The notes under the pieces: generated by a model
Seen by the model: the letters and a program-made list of their open reading frames with translations, nothing else
Told to the model about the DNA's origin: nothing
Databases searched by the model: none
Translations under genes and position numbers: made by a program
In this document: piece after piece, positions 5,678-16,199 of the stretch
How positions within the stretch are numbered: position 1 is the first letter of the stretch
Layout of the letters: the number at the start of each line of letters is the position of its first letter
Assembly: GCA_002239025.1 (NCBI GenBank)
Contig: MPNM01000003.1
Coordinates: forward strand, 206,047 to 242,029
DNA length: 35,983 nucleotides
Direction of reading: 5' to 3'
From: Chloroflexi bacterium bin125
GTDB lineage: Bacteria; Chloroflexota; Dehalococcoidia; Bin125

Positions 5678-6958
5678 ATGCCCGGACCACTCGATGGCAT
5701 CAAGGTGCTCGAACTGACCCAGATCATCGCCGGTCCATACTGCGGTGTCGCGCTCGCTGATCTCGGCGCAGATGTTGTCAAGCTCGAGTCACCCGTCGGC
5801 GACGCCTCGCGAAAGATTGCACAATTCGCACCCGGCGAAAGCAAGGCCTTCCACGCCCTCAACCGTGGCAAACGAGGACTGGTCATCAACCTGGCAACGA
5901 CTGAAGGACAGGCGGTGGCCCACCAGCTCATCCCCCACTTCGATGTGTTTGTCACCAACGTGCGCCCTGGTGTTGCGGACCGAATCGGGATGGACTACGA
6001 CACGCTGCGCCAGATTCGCTCCGACCTGATCTACTTCGATGTCACAGGCTTTGGAGATCGCGGACCAAGCGCTCACCGCGCCGGGTCCGACGCGATGGTT
6101 CAGGCTTACTCGGGACTGGTCGCCGGAGATCTGAAGGTCGGACCGGATGGAGCGCCTGAACAAATCACGGCTTCCGCGCCGTCCGATTACATCGCTGCCC
6201 TGGGTGGTGCGATGGGAGTCTGCGCCGCCCTCTTTCACCGAGAACGAACCGGCGAAGGTCAGCGCATCTCGGGCACACTCCTCGGAGCCGGACTCGCGCT
6301 GCAAACGCCATGGGTCGCCGACGTGCCCGTCTCAGACTCAATCCTGCTCGAACCACTGCGCCGGATGATGACGGAAATGCGGGTATCAGGAGCCTCATAC
6401 GCAGAAATGATTGAAGCGAGACGCAGCCGTCCCAACCAGGGCAAGGCTTTCCGAATCTACTACTCCGGCTATCCGGTCAAGGACGGCGCAATCATCCTCG
6501 GCGCCCTGACCCCTCAAAACCGCGACCAGATTCGCACCGCCCTCGAAATCACCAATGACCCCACGGACAACGACGACTTCAATGCAATCGGCCCCGACGC
6601 GGACGCCATCGTCGCTCGCGTCGAAGAGCAGATCAAAGCAAAGCTCGCGAGCGGCACAATGACTGAATGGATCCGCAAGCTCGATGCCGCCGGAGCGCCG
6701 GCCTCGCCCGTCAACTGGATGGAAGACATGCCCGACGATCCCCAGGTCGCCGCGATGAACCTGATGAGACCAGTCGAACACCCACTCACCGGCCCCGAGC
6801 GCCACGTCGGCCCCCTGGTAAACATGTCCAAGACCGCAACCGGAACCAGCCGTCCTGCGCCACCCCTCGATGCCGAAACCGACGACATCCTCCGCGAACA
6901 CGGCTTCAGCGACGAAATGATCGCGTCATTGCGCGAAACGGGCGCTGTCGGCGCTTGA
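5678..6958 (+). CDS. CaiB/BaiF class III CoA-transferase, copy 1
   Basis: A family III CoA-transferase, 426 residues, moving CoA between carboxylic acids through an aspartyl-CoA intermediate. The N-terminus G-I-K-V-L-E-L-T-Q-I-I-A-G-P, the LGADVVKLE strand and the catalytic Asp170 (APSDY) are all present, followed by CAALFHRERTGEGQ. A GGGGAGG site lies just upstream of ATG 5678. It is the first of three tandem paralogs. It differs most from the other two, which share features such as FLINARPGVP and DEKVDE that it lacks. It is divergent from the crotonase gene, and both probably use the 73-base space between them for promoters. Substrates are unknown. Confidence 0.92.
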   Translation: MPGPLDGIKVLELTQIIAGPYCGVALADLGADVVKLESPVGDASRKIAQFAPGESKAFHALNRGKRGLVINLATTEGQAVAHQLIPHFDVFVTNVRPGVADRIGMDYDTLRQIRSDLIYFDVTGFGDRGPSAHRAGSDAMVQAYSGLVAGDLKVGPDGAPEQITASAPSDYIAALGGAMGVCAALFHRERTGEGQRISGTLLGAGLALQTPWVADVPVSDSILLEPLRRMMTEMRVSGASYAEMIEARRSRPNQGKAFRIYYSGYPVKDGAIILGALTPQNRDQIRTALEITNDPTDNDDFNAIGPDADAIVARVEEQIKAKLASGTMTEWIRKLDAAGAPASPVNWMEDMPDDPQVAAMNLMRPVEHPLTGPERHVGPLVNMSKTATGTSRPAPPLDAETDDILREHGFSDEMIASLRETGAVGA

Positions 6959-7013
6959 ATCGGAAACTGGTTGCCTATCCTCTGCGCAACTGCAATCCCG
7001 ACAGGAGACTCCA

Positions 7014-8315
7014 ATGCCCGGTGCGCTTGATGGAATCAAAGTCCTCGAAGTCACTCAGATCATCGCCGGACCGATGTGCGGAGTCATGCTCTCCGACATG
7101 GGCGCCGATGTGATCAAGATCGAATCTGCCGCCGGCGACGGCATGCGTCTGCTCGGCCAATTCGCGCCTGGCGAGAGCAAGGGCTTCCACGTCTTCAATC
7201 GCGGCAAGCGAGGCATGGTCCTCAACCTTCAGGATCCCGATGGGCAGGCCGTGGTCCAGAAGTTGATCTCGGAGATGGATGTCTTCCTGATCAATGCCCG
7301 GCCCGGAGTGCCGGAACGTCTCAGCATCGACTATGAGAGCCTCCGCGCACACAAGCCCGACCTGATCTACCTCGAAAACACCGCCTACGGCCCCACTGGA
7401 CCATCGGCTCACCGCGCCGGCGCTGACATCATTGCCCAGGCGTATTCGGGCCTCATGGCCGGTGACGAAAAGGTCGATGAGCACGGCGGACCGGACCTCA
7501 TCACAGCCACCACTCCCGCCGACTTCGTTGCGGCCTTCACCAGCACGATCGCGATCTGCGCCGCCCTCTTCCACCGCGAGCGCACCGGTGAAGGCCAGAA
7601 GATCGATACCTCGCTGCTGGCCGGGGCACTGGTGTTGCAGAACGCCTTCACCTCACGCTTGCCGGTCTCCGATGCGATCATGCTCGATCCCATCCTCAAC
7701 GGGCTCGCCGCAGTCCGTGAGCGGGGCGGCAGTTACCGCGAATTGCTCGGAGCGCGAGGCGGTCTCCGCGCCCTGGTCGGAGGCGCATTCTTCCTCTACT
7801 ACGGCGGCTACCAGACTTCAGACGGCGCAATCATGCTCGGTTGCGTCACGCCGCCCAATCGACAACAGGTGCGGGAGGCGCTCGGGCTGCAGCCCGGAGA
7901 CGATCCGACTGACGACGGCGATTTCAACGCACTTGCTGACGGTTCGGAAGAGATTGTCGCTCACGTCCGCGCGCAGATCTCGGAACGATTCGCGTCCGAC
8001 ACCACCGAGAACTGGGTCGCCAAACTCGACGCCGTCGGCGCGCCGGCCTCGCAAGTCAACATTCCTGAGGAGATGATCGATGACCCGCAGGTCCAGGCGC
8101 TGGGCATCATGGTCGACCTCGAACATCCGCTCACCGGACCCGAGCAGATGGTTGGTCCGCCGTTCAACATGTCGGCAACGCCGCCTCAGGCCAAAGGGGC
8201 AGCGCCTCCGCTTGACGGCGACACCAACGAGGTGCTGATCGAGTACGGCTACAGTGCCGAAGAAGTCGCGGCCCTTCGCTCATCCGGCGCCGTAGGTCTG
8301 CCTTCCGACAGCTAG
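7014..8315 (+). CDS. CaiB/BaiF class III CoA-transferase, copy 2
   Basis: A 433-residue family III CoA-transferase with catalytic Asp170 (TTPADF) and the same motif order as copy 1. It starts at ATG 7014 with AGGAG 6 bases upstream, 55 bases after copy 1. Copies 2 and 3 are much closer to each other than to copy 1; both have a QIIAGPMCGVMLSD N-terminus and an LYYGGYQT segment. It is probably co-transcribed with copy 3, whose start lies 9 bases after this stop. Two close copies in tandem could form a heterodimer, since this family works as interlocked dimers, or serve different acids. Confidence 0.92.
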   Translation: MPGALDGIKVLEVTQIIAGPMCGVMLSDMGADVIKIESAAGDGMRLLGQFAPGESKGFHVFNRGKRGMVLNLQDPDGQAVVQKLISEMDVFLINARPGVPERLSIDYESLRAHKPDLIYLENTAYGPTGPSAHRAGADIIAQAYSGLMAGDEKVDEHGGPDLITATTPADFVAAFTSTIAICAALFHRERTGEGQKIDTSLLAGALVLQNAFTSRLPVSDAIMLDPILNGLAAVRERGGSYRELLGARGGLRALVGGAFFLYYGGYQTSDGAIMLGCVTPPNRQQVREALGLQPGDDPTDDGDFNALADGSEEIVAHVRAQISERFASDTTENWVAKLDAVGAPASQVNIPEEMIDDPQVQALGIMVDLEHPLTGPEQMVGPPFNMSATPPQAKGAAPPLDGDTNEVLIEYGYSAEEVAALRSSGAVGLPSDS

Positions 8316-8324
8316 GAGCCGCGT

Positions 8325-9614
8325 GTGCCCGGTCCGCTCGAAGGCATCAAAGTCCTTGAACTCACCCAGATCATCGCTGGACCGATGTGCGGCGTCATGC
8401 TCTCCGACCTCGGTGCAGACGTGGTCAAGATCGAATCACCGGCGGGCGACGGTACCCGCGTCATCGGTCAATTCATACCTCACGAATCCAAGGCGTTCCA
8501 CGTGTTCAACAGAGGCAAGCGGGGCATGGTCCTCAACCTGCAGACGGACGACGGGCGAGAGGTTCTGCATCGTCTGATTCGGCAGTTCGACGTCTTCCTG
8601 ATCAACGCTCGACCGGGCGTACCGCAGCGGCTGGGCGTCGACTACGAATCATTGCGATCATTGAATGACCGGCTGATCTACCTGTCGAACACGGCATTCG
8701 GTCCGGAAGGACCGTCGGCCGGACGCGCGGGCGCCGACATCATCGCTCAGGCCTACTCGGGATTGATGGTTGGCGACGAAAAAGTAGATGAGCAGGGCAA
8801 TCCCACCTTGATCACGGCGACGACGCCGGCTGATATCGGCGCCTCCTGGACCAGTGCGGTCGCAGTCTGCGCTGCGTTGTTTCATCGCGAGCGGACCGGA
8901 CGTGGACAGCTCATCGAAACGTCGCTGCTCGGCGCGGCGCTCACACTGCAGAACTTCGCGTCGGCGAGACTGCCGGTCAGCGACGCCACCTTTCTCCAGC
9001 CGTCGCTCGATGCCATACAACAGGTTCGCGATCAGGGCGGGTCTTACCGAGAACTGCTCGAAGCGCGCTCCGGCACGCGTTCCACGATTGGCGCTGCATA
9101 TCTGCTCTACTACGGCGGTTATCAGACATTCGACGGCGCAATCATGCTCGGCTGTCTGACACCGCTGAATCGACAGCAGGTGAGGAATGCGCTCGGACTC
9201 ACAGAGAGCGAAGATCCAACAGATACCGAACAATTCAATCCGCTCGAAGATGGCTCTACAGCCGTCGTCGATGAGGTTCGCGAGAGAATCTCGCTTCGCT
9301 TTCGTGGCGACACCACAGCCAACTGGGTCGCCAAGCTCGATGCCGCAGGCGCTCCCGCCTCGCAAGTCAACATCCCCGAGGACATGGTTGACGATCCTCA
9401 GGTCCAGGCAATCGGCGCCATCGCCGAGATTGAGCATCCACTCACGGGTCCAGAGCGGATGGTTGGCCCGGTCTATCGAATGTCCGACTCCCCGCCCAAA
9501 GCAACCGGACCATCCCCCATCTTCGACGGAGACACTGACGACATCCTCAAAGAACATGGCTACACCGACTCCGATATCGTTCAACTCCGAGCTTCCGGCG
9601 CCATCGGTGTCTAG
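8325..9614 (+). CDS. CaiB/BaiF class III CoA-transferase, copy 3
   Basis: A 429-residue family III CoA-transferase with catalytic Asp170 (TTPADI). Translation begins at GTG 8325, supported by AGGAG nearby and by the MPGPLEGIKV N-terminus aligning exactly with copies 1 and 2. It is the last gene of the array. A hairpin-bearing repeat about 57 bases after its stop could act as a terminator. The downstream gene converges on it. Confidence 0.92.
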   Translation: MPGPLEGIKVLELTQIIAGPMCGVMLSDLGADVVKIESPAGDGTRVIGQFIPHESKAFHVFNRGKRGMVLNLQTDDGREVLHRLIRQFDVFLINARPGVPQRLGVDYESLRSLNDRLIYLSNTAFGPEGPSAGRAGADIIAQAYSGLMVGDEKVDEQGNPTLITATTPADIGASWTSAVAVCAALFHRERTGRGQLIETSLLGAALTLQNFASARLPVSDATFLQPSLDAIQQVRDQGGSYRELLEARSGTRSTIGAAYLLYYGGYQTFDGAIMLGCLTPLNRQQVRNALGLTESEDPTDTEQFNPLEDGSTAVVDEVRERISLRFRGDTTANWVAKLDAAGAPASQVNIPEDMVDDPQVQAIGAIAEIEHPLTGPERMVGPVYRMSDSPPKATGPSPIFDGDTDDILKEHGYTDSDIVQLRASGAIGV

Positions 9615-10267: not shown

Positions 10268-10485
10268 CTGTTCCGTTCCTCCCGCTGAGCTGCCGGCCAA
10301 CCATTACCGCCGCAGCGGTTGCATTCGACGGTACGTCAAGACGCGCCACGCCCACTCAAAGGGACCGTAGCGGAAGCGGGCTAACCACCATGGCGACTCC
10401 GCGCAGGGCGTCGAGGATCGTGATCCGCCCGGCTTCCTAGATCGGCCCAGCGCTCGTTGGTTCTGCCATGGGTTCTGCAACTGGT

Positions 10486-10542
10486 GGGTCCCTGCGTATG
10501 ATGCAGGGGACGATTGAACGGCAGGTTAGACCCTCTCGGAGG
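10486..10542 (+). promoter_or_regulatory. Possible structured leader of the aminotransferase mRNA
   Basis: A hairpin GTCCCTGC/GCAGGGGAC (10488-10511, one bulged G) lies just before the aminotransferase start. GGGTC at 10486-10490 can alternatively pair with GACCC at 10529-10533, while CCTC at 10532-10535 can pair with GAGG at 10539-10542, which is the ribosome-binding site. The two pairings share bases and exclude each other, the logic of a translational switch. I do not recognise a known riboswitch class; this is pattern inference only. Confidence 0.3.
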
Positions 10543-10548
10543 TTGTTC

Positions 10549-11721
10549 ATGGTGCTTCCAACCAGCGCGGCGCAGAATCTCGGCACCGAGACTGCATTCG
10601 AAGTCCTCGCCAAGGCCAATCGGCTCGCCGCCGAAGGACGCTCGATTATCAACCTCGGCATCGGACAACCCGACTTCGCCACGCCCGACAACATCGTCAA
10701 GGCCGGCGAACGCGCGCTCGCCGAAGGCAAGCACGGCTACACGCCCGGTGCAGGCATCCCTGAGCTCCGCGACGCCGTCGCCCGCGACCTCAAGCGACGT
10801 CATGACGCCGATGTCGACCCCGAGGCCGTGCTGATCACGCCCGGAGCAAAGCCCGTCATGTTCTTCGCTGCGCTACTCATGGGCGAGCCCGGCGCCGAAA
10901 TCCTCTACCCCAACCCCGGATTCCCCATCTACGAATCGGTCATCCGCTTCACCGGCGCGACGCCCGTGCCGATCGAGCTGCACGAGTCCGACGGCTTCAC
11001 CTTCGATCCCGACCAGGTCCTCAGCCAGGTCAACGAGAACACGCGCCTGATCATCCTCAACAGCCCAGCCAACCCGACCGGCGGCGTCTACACCCGAGAT
11101 CAGATCGAGCGAATCGTCGAGGGCCTTGAGCAATGGCCCAACGTCGTCATCCTCAGCGACGAGATCTACTCACGCATCCTCTACGAAGGACGCCAGCACG
11201 TCTCGCTGCTCGACTACCCACAACTCCGCGACCGCCTGATCGTGCTCGACGGCTGGAGCAAGACCTACGCCATGACCGGCTGGCGGCTTGGTTACGGCGT
11301 CTTCCCACCGGACCTCTTCCCCTTCGCCGAGCGTCTTGCCATCAACAGCTATAGCTGCCCAAACGCTGCGACCCAGTACGCCGCAGTCGAGGCCCTCGAC
11401 GGACCGCAGGAAGCCGTCGACATCATGACCACCGCCTTCGACGAGCGGCGCCAGGTCATCGTCAAGGAACTCAACGACGTCCCCGGCGTCAGTTGCGTTG
11501 ACCCGGGTGGAGCCTTCTACGCATTCCCCAACATCTCCGAGACCGGCATCAACGCCCGAACCCTGCAAGAGCGCCTGCTCGACGAAGCAGGACTCGCCGT
11601 GATCGCCGGCACCAGCTTCGGACACCTCGGAGAGGGATACCTGCGATTCAGCTACGCCGCCTCTCTCGAAGAAATCGTCGAAGGCGTCGACAGAATGCGT
11701 ACCCTGTTGGCCAACAGCTGA
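10549..11721 (+). CDS. PLP-dependent aminotransferase, class I/II
   Basis: A fold-type I aminotransferase of 390 residues, close to the AspC/AlaA-like family length. Visible are the N-terminal GIGQPDFATP, NPTGG near residue 175, Asp204 and Tyr207 (SDEIY), the cofactor Lys238 in DGWSKTYAMTGWR, and the C-terminal carboxylate-binding Arg in RFSYA. The frame is open further upstream, but ATG 10549 is chosen because GGAGG lies 6 bases before it. The amino-acid substrate cannot be told from sequence. The OsmC-family gene follows 18 bases downstream, so the two are probably co-transcribed. Confidence 0.9.
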   Translation: MVLPTSAAQNLGTETAFEVLAKANRLAAEGRSIINLGIGQPDFATPDNIVKAGERALAEGKHGYTPGAGIPELRDAVARDLKRRHDADVDPEAVLITPGAKPVMFFAALLMGEPGAEILYPNPGFPIYESVIRFTGATPVPIELHESDGFTFDPDQVLSQVNENTRLIILNSPANPTGGVYTRDQIERIVEGLEQWPNVVILSDEIYSRILYEGRQHVSLLDYPQLRDRLIVLDGWSKTYAMTGWRLGYGVFPPDLFPFAERLAINSYSCPNAATQYAAVEALDGPQEAVDIMTTAFDERRQVIVKELNDVPGVSCVDPGGAFYAFPNISETGINARTLQERLLDEAGLAVIAGTSFGHLGEGYLRFSYAASLEEIVEGVDRMRTLLANS

Positions 11722-11739
11722 TTCCGCAAGGAGTGAGAG

Positions 11740-12210
11740 ATGCCCCACTTCGAATACATCTCACGAAACAAGCTCGAGCTCAAGAATGGCTTCCGCCACG
11801 CCACACTCGGTGACGTGCCCGAGCAGGTCGTCTACGGCGTCCAGGGCAAGCTCAAGGAGCACTACGGCGTGCCCGAGGATGCGCCACCCATGACTGCCAC
11901 GCTTGACCACATCGTCGCCGCGGTCGGCGGTTGAATGTACGGCACGCTCGCGCGGGCGATGTCCGTGCGCAAGGTCGAGTTCGACCCCAACACCTACAAG
12001 GCCGACGTCCTGGGCACCATCGAAGGCGATGACAACCAGACCATCCGGATTACCAAGATCCACGTCATCTTCAACATCCCCGGAATCGCCGAGGATCAAC
12101 GAGCCGCAGCCGATCGAGCGGTCAAGTTCCACGCCCCCGGCTGTCCCGCCCACGAAAGCGTCAAAGACGCCATCGACATCACCTGGGAAGCCAACTACGA
12201 CGACAACTAA
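11740..12210 (+). CDS. OsmC-family selenoprotein with in-frame TGA (Sec65)
   Basis: Read through one TGA at 11932-11934, the frame gives a 156-residue protein of normal OsmC/Ohr length. The first 64 residues end in ATLDHIVAAVGG, the segment just before the reactive Cys in this family. The TGA falls on that Cys, and MYGTLARAM continues the helix. The second redox residue is Cys135 (GCPAHES), 70 residues on, matching the family's Cys pair. AGGAG lies 6 bases before ATG 11740. The ATG directly after TGA has no ribosome-binding site, so an independent second gene is unlikely. OsmC-like proteins are a known bacterial selenoprotein family; they reduce organic hydroperoxides with the first residue as nucleophile. 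Alternatives are a nonsense mutation or sequencing error. No Sec-synthesis gene is in the window. Confidence 0.82.
11942..11968 (+). promoter_or_regulatory. Candidate bacterial SECIS hairpin
   Basis: Directly downstream of the in-frame TGA, GCACG (11942-11946) pairs with CGTGC (11964-11968). Inside this, TCGC (11948-11951) pairs with GCGA (11956-11959) around a GCGG loop (11952-11955). The loop starts 17 bases after the TGA and its first base is G. Bacterial SECIS elements lie within the coding region just 3' of UGA, with the apical loop about 16-37 bases away and a G among its first two bases; this hairpin fits. Folding was done by eye. Confidence 0.65.
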
Positions 12211-14534: not shown

Positions 14535-16199
14535 ATGACGAGCAACGGCGTTTCAACCGAGCTGTCGCAGCGCCTTGAGGCGGCGACCCCGATCCAATCG
14601 GTCATCGACACCAACTCACCCGAGTTCCACGAAAACACCGCCTGGATGCGCGGCCTGGTCGAAGAACTTCGGGAGCACGAGGCGGTTGTCCGCGCTGGCG
14701 GCGGACCGCGCAGCGTCGACCGACACCACGCTCGAGGCAAACTCCTCGCCCGCGAGCGCATCGAGCGCCTGCTCGACCCCGACTCACCCTTCCTCGAGCT
14801 CTCGCCGCTTGCCGCCAATGGCATGTACGGCGACGAAGCGCCCGGCGCAGGCATCGTCACCGGCATCGGACGCGCCGCCGGCCGCGAGATCATGATCGTC
14901 GCCAACGACGCCACCGTGAAGGGCGGCAGCTACTACCCCGTCACGGTCAAGAAACACCTTCGAGCGCAGGAAATCGCCGCTCAGAATCGACTGCCTTGCG
15001 TCTATCTCGTCGACTCCGGCGGAGCCTTCCTGCCCATGCAGGCGGACGTCTTCCCCGACCGCGAGCACTTCGGCCGCATTTTCTACAACCAGGCCACGAT
15101 GTCGGCCCAAGGCATCCCCCAGATCGCCGCCGTGATGGGCTCCTGCACTGCCGGCGGCGCGTATGTCCCCGCCATGTCCGACGAAGCGATCATCGTCGAC
15201 GGTGTCGGCACCATCTTCCTCGGCGGACCACCGCTCGTCCGTGCCGCGACCGGGGAGGAAATCTCCGCTGAAGAACTCGGCGGCGGACTGGTCCACACAC
15301 AGATCTCAGGCGTCGCCGACCACCTCGCCGAGGACGACGAACACGCGCTCGAACTGGTCAGGGCCGCCGTCGCCAATCTCGGCAGCGAGACCAGCGCCGA
15401 TTGGCCCGTCTCACCGCCCGACCAGATTGAAGCGCCGCTCTACGACCCCAGCGAGATCTACGGCATCGTGCCGCAGTCGACCCGCAAGTCCTACGACATC
15501 CGCGAACTGATCGCCCGAATTGTGGATGGATCGAGATTCCACGAGTTCAAGCCATCCTACGGAAGTACCCTCGTCTGCGGATTCGCGAGAGTGATGGGGC
15601 ATCCGGTCGGCATCGTGGCCAACAACGGCATTTTGTTTTCCGAATCCGCGCTCAAGGGCGCCCATTTCATTCAACTCTGCGCCAAGCGCGGCACGCCGCT
15701 GCTCTTCCTACAGAACATCACCGGATTCATGGTCGGTCGCCGATACGAGCACGAAGGCATTGCCAAGCACGGCGCAAAGATGGTCACCGCCGTCGCCTGC
15801 GCCGAGGTGCCCAAGTTCTCCATTGTCCTCGGTGGCTCATTCGGCGCCGGGAACTACGCCATGTGCGGACGCGCCTATTCGCCGCGACTGCTCTGGACCT
15901 GGCCTAACGCCCGCGTCTCCGTCATGGGCGGTGAGCAGGCCGCAAACGTCCTCCTGACCATCCGACAGGATGCCCTCGCCAGACAGGGCGAAGAGATGAC
16001 GCCCGAACAACAACACGAGTTCATGGCGCCTACCTTGGAAAAGTACGAGGAGGAGGGGGCCGCCTACTACGGTTCGGCCCGGATCTGGGACGACGGCATC
16101 CTCGATCCGATCGATACACGTCAAGCGCTCGGAGTCGGACTCGCAGCAGCGCGCAACGCGCCGATCCCAGAGTCAAACTTCGGCGTCTTCCGGATGTAG
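14535..16199 (+). CDS. Acyl-CoA carboxylase carboxyltransferase subunit (methylcrotonyl/geranyl type)
   Basis: The carboxyltransferase subunit of a biotin-dependent acyl-CoA carboxylase, 554 residues. The segments [54 protein letters not shown] and [20 protein letters not shown] are the hallmarks of the 3-methylcrotonyl-CoA/geranyl-CoA branch rather than propionyl-CoA carboxylase. Such a subunit moves CO2 from carboxybiotin to an unsaturated acyl-CoA, as in leucine or isoprenoid breakdown. The biotin carboxylase/carrier subunit is not in the window. GGGAG lies before ATG 14535. The next gene begins 7 bases after the stop, so it is in the same transcript though apparently unrelated in function. 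Confidence 0.9.

Follow-up and report, generated by a model that had tools for sequence, protein, structure and literature searches.

OsmC-like selenoproteins were first reported in 2005 from the Sargasso Sea and carry the motif UxxT (Zhang et al., PMC1088965). A 2026 catalogue lists solely this UxxT form of OsmC selenoprotein (PMC13188914), which is modelled by NCBIfam NF041052 (OsmC_like_Se; cut-off 95 bits). A literature search for an OsmC form with the motif U-x-x-G-T found no description of one. The gene analysed here is of that kind: the motif in its family is U-x-x-G-T (GGUMYGT or AGULTGT) rather than UxxT, and its protein scores 17.6 bits against NF041052, far below the cut-off of 95. 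All 18 close members match this model weakly (best E 8.2e-06), and other members score 14–25 bits or give no match. The members of NF041052 in Chloroflexota read GFULLTQ or AFULLTQ (ULLT).

The gene lies in a stretch of 35,983 nucleotides (the window, i.e., the whole of the DNA that was analysed) on a 242-kb contig (C42) of a 3.68-Mb assembly, which is 96.7% complete. On comparative grounds it is almost certain that the locus encodes an OsmC-superfamily selenoprotein. Its features, in window coordinates, are as follows.

10468..11721, + strand: upstream neighbour, a class I/II aminotransferase gene ending in TGA as a true stop
11728..11733, + strand: ribosome-binding site AAGGAG, 6 nt upstream of ATG 11740
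11740..12210, + strand: predicted OsmC-superfamily selenoprotein gene, 156 residues with Sec65, stop TAA
11932..11934, + strand: UGA codon predicted to be read as selenocysteine; OsmC/Ohr peroxidatic Cys column, conserved TGA
11932..11991, + strand: wider putative SECIS region; lower stems pair nt 1–12 with nt 43–52, few synonymous changes
11949..11969, + strand: putative SECIS apical hairpin, 9-bp stem, nt 18–38 counted from the U of UGA
12142..12144 (TGT), + strand: Cys135, predicted resolving cysteine; conserved in homologs and aligned to CPVSR of 1ukk

The TGA at residue 65 is the single internal stop of the frame 11740–12210, and Cys135 is located 70 residues past it. The read-through protein matches Pfam OsmC (PF02566) at 35.6 bits (cut-off 27.5), and no other gene with PF02566 was found in the genome; neither half alone matched any NCBIfam family, even at E-values up to 10. 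Most same-genus relatives, too, have a GGAG-type site ahead of the start, and nothing comparable to a ribosome-binding site can be read upstream of ATG 11935, directly after the TGA. The original prediction, which described an otherwise intact 156-residue OsmC frame with one TGA at the reactive Cys, a second Cys kept 70 residues later, a good ribosome-binding site before the ATG and none before the downstream half, is thus borne out by the frame, the Pfam match and the alignment given below.

The whole window was scanned for in-frame TGAs flanked on each side by 25 or more open codons, and TGA 11932 ranks first by coding score on both flanks. This rank and the conservation of its column (52 of 54 loci; see below) exclude a chance origin of the TGA-bearing frame. 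The second-ranked TGA, at 15308 on the – strand, lies antisense within a carboxyl transferase gene (14535–16199) and is probably a codon-usage shadow. As for the gene neighbourhood, several relatives also have the C-terminal end of an aminotransferase ahead of their OsmC gene, and three family III CoA-transferase genes stand in tandem at 5678–9614 of the window.

Homologs were found in 18 of the 41 nearest genomes searched, all 18 with one TGA, always at residue 65, and of 400 Chloroflexota genomes searched with a profile, 37 have the OsmC gene. When the homologs covering the Sec column were pooled from both searches (54 loci, Chloroflexota only), column 65 was TGA in 52 loci of 49 genomes, TGC in one (L098) and TGG in one (L099); neither TAA nor TAG occurs there among the 54 covering loci. 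Protein identity among the TGA-bearing homologs is about 30–92%, and nearly every homolog has its sole TGA at the Cys column. Residue 135 is always TGT or TGC, never TGA, in homologs that reach it in frame. Plasmid records were also searched and encoded no relative. The original prediction had proposed a search for UGA-containing and Cys homologs, and would have counted close relatives ending at the same stop against a selenoprotein; UGA forms occur throughout Chloroflexota with one Cys homolog beside them, and no relative ending at this stop was found.

The Cys homolog (L098, also L126; G410:C243) is an intact 169-codon gene in a genome that retains selA. It branches inside the Sec clade with support 94/82, and its position suggests that a later Sec-to-Cys change is more likely than an ancestral Cys form. 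In the TGG homolog (L099, also L127; G335:C49), the N-terminus is no longer alignable and the hairpin stem is disrupted; decay of the copy, a fault in the assembly or a Trp variant could each account for this. One genome has a second copy (L100; G285:C793:1-1000), in which the match is split over two frames after the TGA, a probable frameshift or assembly error.

Selection acts on both halves of the frame. In 15 same-genus sequences, Ka/Ks is 0.089 upstream of the TGA and 0.103 downstream, and the third codon position carries most of the variation in the same-genus set (50 of 60 codon columns before the TGA, 62 of 89 after), indicating that the downstream half is translated in the frame of 11740–12210. 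The codon after the TGA is ATG in 27 of 51 sequences, CTC, CTG or CTT in 23 and TTG in one; ATG is confined to the genus of the window and its nearest group, and the other four codons are found in the other group. As this codon is no usual start in about half of the family, re-initiation is not the cause of the downstream constraint.

Published features of bacterial SECIS elements (PMC1088965) agree with the position and form of the hairpin at this locus, a stem-loop directly after the UGA whose apical loop is small and contains G; the lower stems extend to the UGA itself in the window's own group. Within the genus, no third position varies among the ten codons +10 to +19, compared with 7–10 of 10 in codon windows elsewhere than behind the UGA. 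Synonymous change is scarce at codons +5 to +19 in three subgroups (P = 9e-05, 0.001 and 0.0005, counted only over degenerate, amino-acid-conserved columns and serving as guides, the sequences of a subgroup being related), and the 15-codon window of least synonymous change starts at most 10 codons after the UGA in all three. In the subgroup of 23 sequences, codons +7, +8, +9, +11 and +12 are frozen and correspond to the arms of a hairpin at nt 23–29/33–39, and loop codon +10 varies freely. All seven pairs of this stem are kept in the eight distinct stem-loop sequences of two subgroups, in which pair 27/35 is a compensatory position seen as C-G, G-C, A-U and G-U.

Relative to synonymous-codon shuffles, all three subgroups have their strongest hairpin signal at codons +5 to +13 (mean z -1.3, -2.0 and -1.5); L012 and L026, two of the 18 nearest sequences, show a less distinct hairpin. 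When the 54 nt after the UGA are folded as a single sequence, the result is unremarkable against dinucleotide shuffles (z -1.08), and the SECIS is visible only by cross-species comparison and synonymous-codon controls. Rfam gave no SECIS match, either in the window at the gathering threshold or around the gene at E up to 1. Judged from these comparisons, the hairpin with the frozen synonymous sites after the TGA, retained in all three subgroups, is a bacterial SECIS element.

The genome also encodes the machinery for selenocysteine. A profile search found selA (515.7 bits); selB is full length (a 622-residue SelB, 328 bits), selD scores 350.8 bits and a tRNA-Sec with a UCA anticodon scores 66.4 bits. 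The tRNA-Sec gene shares the 242-kb contig with the window, so that a binning error cannot account for the match. The search for selA, selB, selC (tRNA-Sec) and selD which the original prediction had called for thus found all four, in support of its claim that the organism uses selenocysteine. Its further suggestion of a Chloroflexota-like lineage fits the named relatives, which are Chloroflexota/Dehalococcoidia MAGs; some of their bins presumably come from marine sponges, judging by the bin names. selA occurs in 36 of the 37 genomes with the OsmC gene and in 323 of the 400 sampled Chloroflexota. Selenocysteine use is therefore common in the phylum, and the presence of selA by itself says little about the selenoprotein status of OsmC. 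In G132, a TGA-bearing genome, a search for selA gave no match, possibly due to an assembly gap.

The selD gene (L053:1238-2200, G000:C5) is itself a selenoprotein gene, with one in-frame TGA within its GGUG motif, and each of the above-cut-off selD matches listed among the 41 genomes has one TGA. Like the OsmC gene, it is a selenoprotein gene with a single in-frame TGA, the second such gene of the genome, although SelD and OsmC are unrelated proteins.

We consider, with a probability of roughly 0.95, that the locus encodes one selenoprotein, in which Sec65, inserted by a SECIS- and SelB-driven process, would take the place of the peroxidatic Cys found in OsmC/Ohr proteins. A broken gene or a sequencing error, i.e., an ordinary Cys-OsmC in which TGC or TGT became TGA by a nonsense change, would look the same at a single locus, as the TGA stands at the Cys position and one base from a Cys codon. 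The same TGA, however, recurs at 52 loci from 49 separate genomes across the wide identity range given above, for which the pseudogene reading is rejected; also, the Ka/Ks of 0.10 downstream reflects purifying selection, synonymous sites just after the TGA are constrained and the Sec machinery is complete. A broken gene is thus extremely improbable, and the earlier judgement that selenocysteine is the likelier explanation is upheld by the conserved TGA, the purifying selection, the Sec machinery and the SECIS constraint. Scarcely more credible is a pair of small proteins, with ribosomes starting anew at the ATG adjoining the TGA (TGAATG) to make the second. This would suit the 27 sequences with ATG, from the window's genus and nearest group, but nearly all sequences of the other group lack a usual start, having CTC, CTG, CTT or TTG, no ribosome-binding site precedes 11935, and a split would cut the central helix (H55–76) which spans residue 65 in the model. 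The stop is, moreover, always TGA, never TAA or TAG, at the catalytic Cys column, and a split gene is rejected on this ground and on the lack of a usual start in the other group. A genetic code particular to this lineage, in which UGA stands for an ordinary residue (e.g., Trp or Gly), could appeal to the TGG of L099; its probability is as minute as that of a broken gene, because TGA is the true stop of neighbouring genes (6956–6958 and 11719–11721) and the full selA/B/C/D set is present, which lead to its rejection, and because nearly all homologs limit TGA to one occurrence at the Cys column and the one intact homolog with a sense codon there encodes Cys.

The protein fold is consistent with the OsmC superfamily. 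The predicted model has modest confidence (pLDDT 58.7, with residues 1–38 below 50); its best Foldseek matches are all Ohr/OsmC-type (probability 1.00, E up to 0.001), and VIA gives Z 11.5 to 1ml8 (107 aligned, rmsd 4.7) and Z of about 10 for many Ohr structures. Sequence identity to the solved OsmC/Ohr structures in these matches is just 11–21%. PDB sequence searches with the protein or a close alignment gave chance matches only, and a wider alignment was required: with the wider-family profile, a weak match (E 0.015) to Thermus thermophilus OsmC (1ukk) aligns Sec65 with the peroxidatic Cys (AGCFSM) and Cys135 with the second Cys (CPVSR). Alignment of the read-through protein with OsmC/Ohr, suggested by the original prediction, thus puts residue 65 at the peroxidatic column. 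In the Ohr of X. fastidiosa, the catalytic Arg is Arg19 and the catalytic acidic residue is Glu51 (PMC5962072). In the family of the window gene, Asp56, nine residues before Sec, is invariant, and Arg is common at column 19, within the low-confidence part of the model.

Computation supports the reading frame, the conservation of its UGA, the presence of the Sec machinery, the constraint on the SECIS, the fold and the match of both catalytic columns; insertion of Sec in the cell and the peroxidase chemistry, with its substrate and reductant, are inferred, as follows. The stem-loop after UGA 11932 would recruit SelB with Sec-tRNA(Sec), and the ribosome would insert selenocysteine at residue 65, where OsmC/Ohr enzymes have their peroxidatic cysteine. 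The selenolate would attack an (organic) hydroperoxide, the resulting selenenic acid would join Cys135 in a selenenylsulfide, and reduction by a dithiol (lipoyl groups in Ohr) would restore the enzyme. The protein thus probably reduces hydroperoxides by means of Sec, Sec65 acting as the peroxidatic and Cys135 as the resolving residue. A selenoprotein of another activity, e.g., a Sec-based reductase or transferase which uses the OsmC scaffold for a different substrate, is a less likely though serious candidate. The low identity to solved structures leaves room for it, as do the conserved surroundings TLDxxVAA, UxxGT and CPxxxS, which are particular to this clade, and at least one OsmC-kind protein is reported to have no thiol-dependent peroxidase activity (PMC4069020). 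Both redox columns of OsmC/Ohr are nevertheless kept, and Sec at the peroxidatic position suits peroxidase chemistry, in favour of the hydroperoxide reductase.

Most selenoprotein families have many Cys homologs. In the U-x-x-G-T family Sec is nearly fixed (52 Sec, 1 Cys and 1 Trp codon), suggesting that Sec is required, and the family offers a clean case in which to ask what selenium gives an OsmC-type peroxidase. It adds a distinct and widespread selenoprotein family to Chloroflexota. The NCBI Sec-OsmC model NF041052 misses this family, and its genes are therefore probably split into two fragments or discarded in annotation.

Compared with known systems, the protein shares its fold with the OsmC peroxiredoxins (TIGR03562; Escherichia coli 1nye/1qwi and T. 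thermophilus 1ukk) and matches them weakly around both Cys columns, but scores only 13.9 bits against a cut-off of 85.8, and those enzymes have Cys rather than Sec. Ohr likewise has the same fold, with the two redox residues on the same elements, but carries Cys in place of Sec at about 11–21% identity, and the N-terminal part of the window's protein, where the catalytic Arg of Ohr would lie, is modelled at low confidence. The NF041052 family is of the same superfamily and also has Sec at the peroxidatic Cys position, encoded by an in-frame UGA with a bacterial SECIS-like hairpin after it; it differs from the family of the window gene in its motif (ULLT versus U-x-x-G-T), in the gap in score and in the tree, where the window gene's family forms a separate clade (100/100) and NF041052 groups with other OsmC proteins, the tree being unrooted and its other rows picked among weaker NF041052 matches. 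Both families occur together in several genomes (G075, G109, G325 and G349). The original assignment to an established OsmC-like selenoprotein family therefore holds for the superfamily, and for the family it gives way to a clade separate from NF041052/UxxT. Sec was probably gained independently in the U-x-x-G-T and UxxT families. We lean towards the view that the U-x-x-G-T proteins represent a second OsmC selenoprotein lineage of independent origin in about a dozen Chloroflexota families, long kept almost only in the Sec form, missed by annotation and possibly having its own substrate or reductant.
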